23,059 nucleotides of DNA from positions 1 to 23,059 of the forward strand of contig JAEDJU010000004.1 in NCBI GenBank assembly GCA_016296195.1. The letters run 5' to 3'. Shown here one piece after another: positions 1 to 5,700 of this stretch (positions are counted from its first letter, which is position 1; each line of letters begins with the position of its first letter). The position numbers were made by a program, and so were the translations under genes. This DNA comes from Candidatus Methanomethylophilaceae archaeon. GTDB taxonomy: Archaea > Thermoplasmatota > Thermoplasmata > Methanomassiliicoccales > Methanomethylophilaceae. The notes under the pieces are model-generated. The model saw only the letters and a list, made by a program, of their open reading frames with translations, was not told where the DNA came from and did no database searches.

Positions 1-1097
1 ACCTGGATGATGGGGTGCCTGACATCGATCTCCTGGAGCTGCTGCTCGTAGACCTGCTCCGCGACGGAGTGACATGCTGCGGCCGCGACATCCTCGAAGC
101 TCTTTCCGTCTCCTAGGGTGGTGACCAAATCCTGGATACCGAAGACCGAACAGTAGGAGTTCATCTTGGCGTTCCTCCAGTCACCCTTGTCGGCGAGCGC
201 ACCCAACTGGGTGACATCGATCTTGAGCCTCCTGGAGGTCATCTCGAGGAAACGTCCGGATGCTCCGGCACAGACTCCTCCCATGGTGAAGTTGTCCGGG
301 ATACCGTCACGTACGGTGATGGCCTTGTTGTCCATTCCTCCGATATCGATGATGGTGGCCTCTCCCCTCTGCCTGTCGGCGAGCCATACGGCTCCCTTGG
401 AGTTGACGGTGAGCTCCTCCTGGACCAGCTTGACCTTGTCCTTGAAGTGCTCCCCCAAAGTGAAACGTCCGTATCCGGTGGTACCCATGGCATCGATGTC
501 CTTGTACTCGAGACCGGCCTGTGCCAGCGCCTCGTTGAGCACAGCGGTGGCGGACTCCACGACGTTGTGGGACGGGGTCCATGCCTTACCGATGATCTTG
601 TTGTCCTGCATGATGACAGCCTTGGTGGTCGAGGATCCGGAGTCGAGACCGGCGGTGATTCCTGCCTGCCTCTCCCTTGCGAGGAGCTCCTTCCTGGTGA
701 CGATGGTGACCAACGCCTCCATCCTGGTCAGCAGCTGGGACGCCTTCAGCCTCTCGGTGAAGGAGTATGTGACGACTGGGAGGTTGGTGTTCTCCTGGAT
801 GAACCTCCTGACCTCGTTCCTGACCAGTGCGGCCTCCGCACACCTGAAGCAGGTGGTGATGAACACCGCATCCGCGGCGTAGTTGCCGTCGGCGAGCTGT
901 ACGGCCCTTGCGATCATCAGCTTGAGCTGGTTGGAGCGGGGTCTGAATCCGAACCTCTCCACGGCGATCTCGATGTCCGCCGCGGACACGTCGGGGTAGA
1001 CGACCTTCGCACCTACGCTGCGCGCCGCCTTGTCGATCTCGTACTGGACACTGCTGTATTCGGTTCCGCATGAAAGCTGTGCGATCTTGATGGTCAC
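1..1097 (-). CDS. mmp15: Methanogenesis marker protein 15 (ASKHA-fold ATPase), 3' end cut off
   Basis: This is the last visible gene of the MCR-activation operon, and about 365 codons lie in the window. The protein starts MTIKIAQLSCGTEYSS and has a ~140-residue N-terminal domain with a conserved cysteine at residue 10 and a TTCFRC pair. An ATPase domain follows, with phosphate loops AGLDSGSSTTKAV and IDIGGMDNKAI and the segment GGVCAGASGRFLEM, typical of the BcrAD/BadFG/HgdC activators of 2-hydroxyacyl-CoA dehydratases. Those relatives use ATP to drive low-potential electron transfer, so a similar role near MCR is a reasonable inference but is not shown. The GTG start is chosen because it overlaps the mmp5 stop (GTGA) and GGAGG precedes it. 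The family call is by motif and context. Confidence 0.88.
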   Translation of the reverse strand, partial: MTIKIAQLSCGTEYSSVQYEIDKAARSVGAKVVYPDVSAADIEIAVERFGFRPRSNQLKLMIARAVQLADGNYAADAVFITTCFRCAEAALVRNEVRRFIQENTNLPVVTYSFTERLKASQLLTRMEALVTIVTRKELLARERQAGITAGLDSGSSTTKAVIMQDNKIIGKAWTPSHNVVESATAVLNEALAQAGLEYKDIDAMGTTGYGRFTLGEHFKDKVKLVQEELTVNSKGAVWLADRQRGEATIIDIGGMDNKAITVRDGIPDNFTMGGVCAGASGRFLEMTSRRLKIDVTQLGALADKGDWRNAKMNSYCSVFGIQDLVTTLGDGKSFEDVAAAACHSVAEQVYEQQLQEIDVRHPIIQ

Positions 1098-1528
1098 TGC
1101 AATCCCTCCAGGAATTCCTTGATCTTTCCGACGAAGGCCTTTCCCTCCTCCTCGTTTCCGGGATAGGGGAGCCTGAGCGCCGGGATGTTGCGTCTCTTCA
1201 CGAGGTACTTCACCATGAGCTCGGAGCGCTCGCATCCGACACATCCGAAGGAGAACGGCGGGTCGTCGACGATGATGGCCGCATCGGCCTCCTCGATCAG
1301 AGGACCCCACACGGCGAGCCTTCCCCTCACACCGGAGGGGACCTCGATTCCCGCGTACTTGAGTCCCTTGACCACATCGTCCAAGGTGACGTTCATGGGC
1401 GGCATGTCCACCTCAATGTTGTCTATCCTTTCCTGCAACGCCGCCATAGTGCTGAGCGGCTCATGACCGAATCTCTCCACCAGATCGAACAGAATGAGAC
1501 TGTTCGGGGGGTCGATGAACACCTTCAT
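1094..1528 (-). CDS. mmp5: Methanogenesis marker protein 5
   Basis: This 144-residue protein begins MKVFIDPPNSLILFDLVERF and carries a CxxC pair (C96, C99) in FGCVGCERSELM, a likely metal or cluster ligand site. It is found only in MCR-containing archaea as methanogenesis marker 5; its biochemical role is not known. An in-frame TTG 15 bases upstream would lengthen it, but the ATG at 1528 is preferred. That ATG overlaps the mmp6 stop as ATGA and has GAGGTGA five bases before it. The stop in turn overlaps the GTG start of mmp15. Its place between markers 6 and 15 supports a part in MCR assembly or activation (inference). Confidence 0.9.
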   Translation of the reverse strand: MKVFIDPPNSLILFDLVERFGHEPLSTMAALQERIDNIEVDMPPMNVTLDDVVKGLKYAGIEVPSGVRGRLAVWGPLIEEADAAIIVDDPPFSFGCVGCERSELMVKYLVKRRNIPALRLPYPGNEEEGKAFVGKIKEFLEGLQ

Positions 1529-4081: not shown

Positions 4082-5700
4082 AACTCTCCACCGGTTTCCA
4101 GGATCTCCTGCTCGAGATCCCTGAGTTTCTTCACGAGTTCGTCCGCGGGACCGATGAACTCGATCTTTCCTTCCTTCATGAGGGCTCCGCGGTCGCAACA
4201 GTTGAGGATGAAGTCCATGTCGTGGCTGACCACGATGAACGTCTCGTTGAGGTCGTCCCTCGCTTTGAGCACGGCCTTGGCAACGGTGACCTTGGTGATG
4301 GGGTCCATGGTACCGGTGGGCTCGTCGAGGACGACGATCTTGGGTTCTTTGATGAGGACCTGTGCGAAAGCGATCCTCTGGTTCTCTCCGACGGAGAGGG
4401 TTCCGGGCTGTGCCTGGAGGACGTTCTCGATGCCCTTCCTCGGGAATCCGACGCTGAGGAGCGCCTGGATGGCCTTGACCTTGGCCAGCTCCGCAGGCAT
4501 CTTGATACCGATGCTGGAGGACAGGTTCATGAGGACGGTGTCGAACGGATAGAGGGTGAACTCCTGGTGGAGCACGCCGATGTATGCGGTGGCCCTTCCC
4601 TTTCCTCCCTCTCCGGGATCGCTCATGTTGATCCAGCTGTCTCCGATCTTGATCTCCACCTTTCCTTCGGTGGCGGGGGTCATACCGGATATCATACGGG
4701 AGGTGGTGGTCTTTCCGGCTCCGGAGAATCCGACGAGGGCGAAGATCTCCCCCTCCTTGATGTCGAAGGACACACCGTCGACGGCCTTGACGACTCCCCT
4801 GACGACGGAGAAGTAGTGCTTCTTGGCGTTCTCGAGTCTGATGAGGGTCTCTCCCACGTTGTGGACGGTTCCCTTCTCGAACTTGTACTCCTCCATGAAC
4901 TTGTTGGTGACATCGGTGGGATCCCCCTGCGCGACGACCTTGCCGGCGTCGAGCCATATGGCGGTGTCCGCCATCTTGGTGATGGCATCCGGCCAGTGGG
5001 ATGCGAAGACCATGCAGATGTTGTGCTCCTTGACGTACTTGACCAGCCTCTCGTGGACGAGTGCGGCGGTGTAGGGATCGAGGGTTCCGGTGGGTTCGTC
5101 CGCGAGGAAGAACAACGGGTCCTTCGCAAGCTGTCTCGCCATGACGACCCTCTGCTTCTCTCCTCCGGACAGATCGCGGGCGATGTGGGTCGTCCTGTGG
5201 GTCATGTTGACGAAATCGAGCAGTTCGATGGCTGTCTTGATCTTCTTGTTCTCGGGGGTGCCGTCGGGCATCGCCTCGTAGATGTTCTCCAGGACCGTAT
5301 CGTCCCCGAAGAGCGCGAAGGTCCTCTGGAGCATGATCGATATGCGGAGATGGAGTGCGACTCTGACGGGATCGCGCTCGCGAAGGGACCACATGTCGAT
5401 CCATTCGTCCTGCATCTCGGTACCGCAGTGGGGACAGCACTTCTCTCCGACGGGTGTGTCGAGGCAGTTGCACTTGGGACAGCGGTCCACGTGGTAGAGG
5501 ATCCTTCCGGAGTCGGGCTTGTATCCCTCGGAGCCCCTGATCATGTGGATGAGGACACTCTTTCCGGCAGCACTCTTACCGATGAGTCCGAGTACCTCTC
5601 CTGTCCTGAGGGTGACGGAGATGTTATCAAGCACGACCTTGCCATCGAAGGACTTGGTGACGTTCTCGAGCTTAAGAAGTTCGACACCTGTTTCTGACAT
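4078..5700 (-). CDS. atwA: MCR activation component A2, twin ABC-type ATPase
   Basis: This 540-residue soluble protein has two fused ABC ATPase modules and no membrane segment. Module 1 has Walker A GKSAAGKS (41-48), an inserted zinc-finger-like set CPKCNC and CCPHC (74-92), signature LSGGEKQ (177-183) and Walker B FFLADEPTG (~197-205). Module 2 has Walker A GFSGAGKTT (~324-332), an altered signature LSVGENQR (~435-442) and Walker B IVVLDEPTGTMD (~455-466). The inserted cysteines and the pairing with mcrC identify component A2, which supplies the ATP step of MCR reductive activation. It is the first gene of the six-gene operon. A TATA-like box 27 bp before the ATG and the lack of a ribosome binding site suggest a leaderless mRNA. 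Confidence 0.95.
   Translation of the reverse strand: MSETGVELLKLENVTKSFDGKVVLDNISVTLRTGEVLGLIGKSAAGKSVLIHMIRGSEGYKPDSGRILYHVDRCPKCNCLDTPVGEKCCPHCGTEMQDEWIDMWSLRERDPVRVALHLRISIMLQRTFALFGDDTVLENIYEAMPDGTPENKKIKTAIELLDFVNMTHRTTHIARDLSGGEKQRVVMARQLAKDPLFFLADEPTGTLDPYTAALVHERLVKYVKEHNICMVFASHWPDAITKMADTAIWLDAGKVVAQGDPTDVTNKFMEEYKFEKGTVHNVGETLIRLENAKKHYFSVVRGVVKAVDGVSFDIKEGEIFALVGFSGAGKTTTSRMISGMTPATEGKVEIKIGDSWINMSDPGEGGKGRATAYIGVLHQEFTLYPFDTVLMNLSSSIGIKMPAELAKVKAIQALLSVGFPRKGIENVLQAQPGTLSVGENQRIAFAQVLIKEPKIVVLDEPTGTMDPITKVTVAKAVLKARDDLNETFIVVSHDMDFILNCCDRGALMKEGKIEFIGPADELVKKLRDLEQEILETGGEL

Follow-up and report, generated by a model that had tools for sequence, protein, structure and literature searches.

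A candidate ATP-driven electron-delivery pair, Mmp15 and Mmp5, encoded beside the activation genes of methyl-coenzyme M reductase

The genes analysed here occupy the left end of a 23,059-nucleotide stretch of DNA from a Candidatus Methanomethylophilaceae archaeon (contig JAEDJU010000004.1; hereafter the window), and their closest described counterparts belong to the machinery that activates methyl-coenzyme M reductase (MCR). Cryo-electron microscopy (cryo-EM) has resolved a complex of McrC, Mmp7, Mmp17, Mmp3, A2 and DUF2098 on MCR, in which three [8Fe-9S-C]-like clusters form a wire towards F430 that ends with FeSIII near the surface at Mmp7/Mmp17 (Ramirez-Amador 2025, PMC12176620). A second McrC pull-down names Mmp3, Mmp7, Mmp17, A2 and Hsp20 (PMC9584954). 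The purified complex is active in vitro with Ti(III) citrate and inactive with dithiothreitol (DTT), from which its authors infer that auxiliary proteins are missing; they give −650 mV for the Ni(II)/Ni(I) couple of free F430 (PMC12176620). What supplies methanogens with electrons at the −650 mV that switching MCR on demands is an open question. Elsewhere, ATPases of the 2-hydroxyacyl-CoA dehydratase and benzoyl-CoA reductase (HAD/BCR) type take electrons at about −400 mV and bring them to −600 or −800 mV (PMC6739815). We consider it nearly an even chance, judging from sequence, that Mmp15 and Mmp5 form a divergent pair of this kind, an archerase that feeds the activation complex with electrons of low potential.

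The gene cluster itself is already known. In Candidatus M. alvus, the consecutive genes AGI85150–AGI85157 were described as AtwA, McrC, a peptidyl-prolyl isomerase (PPIase)-related protein, arCOG04901, arCOG04903, a CoA-enzyme activase, arCOG04904 and a McrC-like protein (Borrel 2014, PMC4153887, Table 5); we assigned Mmp numbers to them by order (Mmp3 being the PPIase-related protein, Mmp15 the activase and Mmp7 the McrC-like protein). The gene order reported here is identical; the present analysis adds overlap statistics and the probable relation of Mmp5 and the Mmp15 N-terminal domain to dehydratase domains. The same report suggested that uncharacterised core genes could be intimately involved in Mcr function, and the extra clustered Mmps are presumed in PMC12176620 to be needed for physiological F430 activation, so that the participation of these proteins is an idea already in print. 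DUF2112 and DUF2102 (Mmp5 and Mmp6) have been described as a conserved operon in Methanosarcinales, Mmp5 having a single CxxC (PMC9425974). Among the literature matches listed, no mechanism for Mmp5, Mmp6 or Mmp15 was found. The window carries the following genes.

4078..5700, minus strand: atwA, component A2, the tandem ABC ATPase of MCR activation (TIGR03269, 723 bits; cut-off 517)
3461..4081, minus strand: mcrC (TIGR03264, 295 bits; cut-off 213.5)
1944..3464, minus strand: mmp3 (TIGR03268, 402 bits; cut-off 234)
1525..1947, minus strand: mmp6, DUF2102 (PF09875, 115 bits, cut-off 25; TIGR03272, 114.2, under its cut-off of 125.95)
1094..1528, minus strand: mmp5, DUF2112 (NCBIfam, 212 bits, cut-off 140; PF09885, 215 bits)
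1..1097, minus strand: mmp15, truncated by the window edge to 365 of about 409 codons (TIGR03286, 618 bits; cut-off 456)

Pfam agrees with the NCBIfam names for five of the six; Mmp3 had no match in the Pfam search of the window proteins.

Mmp15, Mmp5 and their dehydratase-like domains

Relatives stand in throughout for the window's own genome, and all sequence surveys were made within Thermoplasmatota. Mmp15 consists of an N-terminal domain (residues 1–146) followed by an ASKHA ATPase domain of the BcrAD/HgdC type, which also matches TIGR00241 (262 bits) and PF01869. Its fold is closest to that of the iron–sulphur activases and not to kinases or other ASKHA proteins, the best 50 rows of the structure comparison all falling on the ASKHA part. 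Two cysteines, C276 and C316, align with the cluster cysteines of HgdC and its relatives and are conserved in 104/104 sequences. With HgdC, HadI, MbdQ/BcrA-D and DCCP-R (1hux, 4eht, 9gai, 7yyl), Mmp15 thus has in common the ASKHA fold, the ATP-binding motifs and the two cluster cysteines; at its N terminus it has, unlike them, an additional domain of about 146 residues, and their usual partner, HGD-D (PF06050), had no match in 17 of the 18 mmp15-positive genomes tested, some of which may be incomplete. An earlier note on this DNA had called Mmp15 an ASKHA ATPase of the dehydratase-activator type, and profiles, fold and cysteines all bear this out: by its sequence, Mmp15 is an iron–sulphur ASKHA ATPase of the HgdC/BcrD type with both predicted cluster cysteines, newly recognised here as such.

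Mmp5 and the Mmp15 N-terminal domain both resemble the C-terminal domain of HGD-D (hhalign 65–88%; Mmp5 alone, 73–85%), while the other families reach at most 12.4%, so that HGD-D alone stands out among 32 open reading frame (ORF)-family profiles, and shuffles fail to reproduce the similarity. The second cysteine of the CxxC motif in each (Mmp5 C99, Mmp15 C86) falls on the cluster-ligand column of HGD-D, equivalent to C328 of L166, and in Mmp5 both C96 and C99 are invariant. Foldseek matches of the AF2 model of Mmp5 are enriched for the HGD-D family; its VIA-align scores are unspecific. The likeness is confined to one domain. Mmp5 (144 residues) and the Mmp15 N-terminal domain (146) did not match the N-terminal two-thirds of HGD-D (hhalign 4.1% and 0.8%). 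HGD-D proteins such as HadBC, BzdNO and DCCP (3o3m, 8s02, 6eno), by contrast, have three domains in about 340–440 residues and three invariant cluster cysteines; of these, Mmp5 and Mmp15 keep the ligand of the C-terminal domain, lack the two others, and carry CxxC in place of a single cysteine. Shallow as the alignments are, both domains are probably remote homologues of the HGD-D C-terminal domain in which the ligand-cysteine column has been kept.

Mmp6, the third uncharacterised product, keeps C40 and the RCRA cysteine C82 in 98/98 sequences, and C43, the second cysteine of its CxxC, in 58/98. The cysteine motifs ascribed earlier to Mmp5 and Mmp6 therefore hold for Mmp5 and for RCRA, whereas the CxxC of Mmp6 is not general. 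Mmp6 had no significant relative in the PDB and no NCBIfam or Pfam match beyond its own DUF2102/marker-6 models. A resemblance noticed by eye between its KETCYG and the EESCTG of HGD-D was rejected (4.6%; 2 of 100 column shuffles scored higher).

A few irregular frames were met in the surveys. One protein of 558 amino acids (P0125, one member sequence) joins Mmp5 to Mmp15 through a short linker; it is either a natural fusion or an assembly error and was unused as evidence. An apparent Mmp6–Mmp5 fusion (L070) was dropped, its frame running across undetermined bases. On contig 11 of genome G001, at about 35189–36949, an open frame of unusual length (about 1412 codons) matches the ASKHA part of the Mmp15 model weakly in two places, one of these matches crossing a stop codon; the frame probably encodes a large activase-type protein.

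Conservation of the gene unit in relatives

Read base by base, all five junctions of the window chain atwA–mcrC–mmp3–mmp6–mmp5–mmp15 overlap.

4078..4081, minus strand: ATGA start–stop overlap of atwA and mcrC
3461..3464, minus strand: overlap of mcrC and mmp3 in a GTGATG context, either GTGA or TGATG with an ATG start at 3461
1944..1947, minus strand: ATGA start–stop overlap of mmp3 and mmp6
1525..1528, minus strand: ATGA start–stop overlap of mmp6 and mmp5
1094..1097, minus strand: GTGA start–stop overlap of mmp5 and mmp15

The uninterrupted overlap stated in the earlier note is thus confirmed, but the GTGA reading of the mcrC/mmp3 junction is not certain: a GTG start at 3464 gives an overlap of 4 nucleotides, an ATG start at 3461 one of 1 nucleotide, and the ATG is the start that matches the relative L001 (Thermoplasmata archaeon SIG6).

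In the sample of 389 genomes from the phylum of L001, mmp5 occurs in 55, mcrA in 54 and both in 53, the three exceptions perhaps reflecting incomplete assemblies. One of the 55 mmp5 contigs ends too early for atwA, mcrC, mmp17 and mmp7. The remaining 54 all keep the order atwA–mcrC–mmp3–mmp6–mmp5–mmp15–mmp17–mmp7, of which the window shows the first six genes; in L001, mmp17 starts nine bases past mmp15 and mmp7 follows. The neighbours that the note had sought beyond position 1 are therefore found in relatives, and its six-gene unit must be extended past mmp15, mostly without start–stop overlap. Of the control genomes from outside Thermoplasmatota, those of M. jannaschii and M. acetivorans have an Mmp5 match that passes the cut-off, and six match Mmp15, two of them above cut-off. 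Scans of viral contigs gave no confirmed relative of Mmp3 or Mmp15.

An overlap was scored where the overlapping start lay no more than 10 codons from the homologous start; the mmp6/mmp5 junction of L130, which contains undetermined bases, was left unscored. Start–stop overlaps are found at atwA/mcrC in 40/54 genomes (16 of these through TTG), at mcrC/mmp3 in 29 of 39 adjacent pairs, at mmp3/mmp6 in 45/55 genomes, at mmp6/mmp5 in 49 of 54 adjacent pairs and at mmp5/mmp15 in 53/55 genomes, and at the two distal junctions in 13/54 (mmp15/mmp17) and 18/54 (mmp17/mmp7). At the five junctions present in the window, these frequencies far exceed the background of other co-directional neighbours at the same loci, where 10/142 overlap by crude ORF calls and a similar though not identical criterion, and the overlaps there are not due to chance. 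Since they are most frequent at mmp6/mmp5 and mmp5/mmp15, the three uncharacterised genes appear most tightly coupled to each other. Gene order and overlaps are thus conserved, as the note had asked to be checked, yet the chain is not a strict one: in 15/54 relatives (for example, L130 and L163) mcrC and mmp3 are separated by an antiparallel gene of about 200 codons, and all 15 of these genes are mutually related.

Compared with the cryo-EM complex, A2, McrC and Mmp3 (in the window) and Mmp7 and Mmp17 (in relatives) are common to both, and the note was right to count the first three among the parts of a structurally solved machinery. In McrC, C14 is conserved in 92/92 sequences and C56 in 93/93; by position they correspond to C12 and C55 of M. 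maripaludis, the ligands of the [8Fe-9S-C]-like cluster FeSII (PMC12176620). C90 and C143 of Mmp7 are present in 98/98. The predicted electron-wire cysteines are conserved, then, in the relatives' genomes. In the window lies the left portion of a unit of eight genes, atwA to mmp7; the chances approach even that this unit combines the MCR activation machinery with a putative electron-injecting branch.

The small subunit DUF2098, which binds McrC in the M. maripaludis complex, was matched in 17/18 genomes (for example, G146 C1:423214-423489), in all 17 on the same strand and 13–17 bases past the end of the mcrA match.

A possible electron route and its alternatives

The mechanism that we tentatively favour, at somewhat below even probability, is that MCR activation uses a second ATPase besides A2: Mmp15 and Mmp5 would be a stripped-down pump of the benzoyl-CoA reductase/2-hydroxyacyl-CoA dehydratase type, its catalytic component reduced to single Fe-S domains from which the nitrogenase-like clusters in McrC and Mmp7 receive electrons of −600 to −800 mV. 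A dimer of Mmp15 around a [4Fe-4S] cluster would take electrons from ferredoxin and, on ATP hydrolysis, release them at a potential of about −600 mV or lower. Mmp5 and the Mmp15 N-terminal domain would hold the Fe-S site that receives them; this site could dock on the exposed FeSIII at the Mmp7/Mmp17 surface, from where the electrons would run through FeSII and FeSI to F430. Mmp6 might be a small accessory of Mmp5 and Mmp15. A2 would open and hold MCR while Mmp15 powers the electrons, a division compatible with the view favoured by the complex's authors, in which A2 raises the potential of F430 by binding and hydrolysing ATP (PMC12176620). If so, two proteins would suffice to put the question of the electron source to a direct test, and it might become possible to make functional MCR in other hosts; a single operon would bring together an ABC ATPase, an archerase and L-type clusters, and electron activation of the ATP-driven BCR type would be linked to how methanogenesis and nitrogenase-type clusters arose.

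Several observations speak against this pump. Mmp5, Mmp6 and Mmp15 are not subunits of the cryo-EM complex, are unnamed in the main text of its report, and go unnamed in the accounts of two published McrC pull-downs (PMC12176620, PMC9584954), and they did not co-purify with McrC in M. maripaludis; the earlier suggestion that they are further subunits is accordingly not supported in the sense of stable ones. We propose that their contact with the complex is transient, which would explain why they drop out when McrC is purified; the assays of such preparations use Ti(III) in their place. The profiles of Mmp5 and the Mmp15 N-terminal domain did not match each other, and by VIA-align TIR and DNPH1-type folds score at least as high as DCCP for Mmp5. 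These two points, with the shallowness of the alignments, favour the view that the HGD-D likeness reflects a common alpha/beta fold reached by convergence, the ASKHA part of Mmp15 alone being related, a view that overlaps the other alternatives and that we judge unlikely: two proteins of one operon share the same domain and the same cysteine column, and neither shuffles nor the other ORF-family profiles yield such a similarity.

The main competing explanation, unlikely in our estimate, is that McrC and Mmp7 depend on Mmp5, Mmp6 and Mmp15 to have their [8Fe-9S-C]-like clusters matured or inserted, with Mmp15 as an ATP-driven reductase in cluster transfer downstream of NifB, comparable to NifH/NifEN in the assembly of nitrogenase, and Mmp5 as a carrier. 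An assembly factor would fit the absence of these proteins from the purified holo-complex, CxxC proteins could carry a cluster, NifB is present in 18/18 genomes tested, and in M. marburgensis the clustered further mmp genes are followed by nifB (PMC12176620). That linkage, however, is not kept in the 18 genomes, where the nifB match shares no contig with mmp15 or is over 14 kb away from it, the shortest distance being in G175. Similarity of Mmp5 and the Mmp15 N-terminal domain to Mmp7 and McrC is weak or none (hhalign 12.4%, 0.6%, 0.2% and 0.3%); the homology that can be recognised is with ATPases that deliver electrons and with the Fe-S domain in the proteins that accept these. Delivery of metal clusters, as the note proposed, is possible, but ATP-driven electron delivery agrees better with the homology found here. 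Other ASKHA proteins are kinases or chaperone-like, and Mmp15 with Mmp5 and Mmp6 might accordingly be an MCR-linked chaperone, regulator or modification system working as a conformational switch without electron transfer, much as A2 is thought to act by nucleotide-dependent conformational change (PMC12176620); the invariance of both cluster cysteines of Mmp15 and the grouping of its ATPase with iron–sulphur activases rather than kinases make this quite unlikely. Even less credible is a separate ATP-dependent reductase of a small molecule that is merely co-expressed with the MCR genes. The relatives of Mmp15 do act on CoA esters, and physical contact of the three proteins with MCR proteins is not demonstrated, but the catalytic HGD-D is unmatched in 17 of the 18 genomes tested, and mmp5 keeps company with mcrA in 53 genomes against three exceptions.

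Flanking genes

Next to atwA, at 5841–6794 on the plus strand, lies a divergent regulator-like gene (DUF4443/DUF2111, with a winged-helix-like N-terminus), which adjoins atwA in 49 of the 50 loci that have both, the window included. In the intergenic region between them (5701–5840) the CGTTAA/TTAACG motif occurs three times (shuffles, 0.12). Of the 13 relatives displayed, about 10, counted by eye, have instead an inverted repeat resembling GGATGGATATATAATCCATCC close to where the regulator starts. Beside the regulator, at 6794–7402 on the plus strand, an uncharacterised protein is encoded. Two of the genes that separate mcrC from mmp3 in relatives were compared with it and proved remotely related (about 25% identity; pairwise BLASTP, E 4e-13 and 2e-9). 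Farther along, at 8048–12287 on the minus strand, the translations contain, by eye, candidates for a uroporphyrinogen decarboxylase-type methyltransferase, a hydantoinase-like protein and a corrinoid protein.

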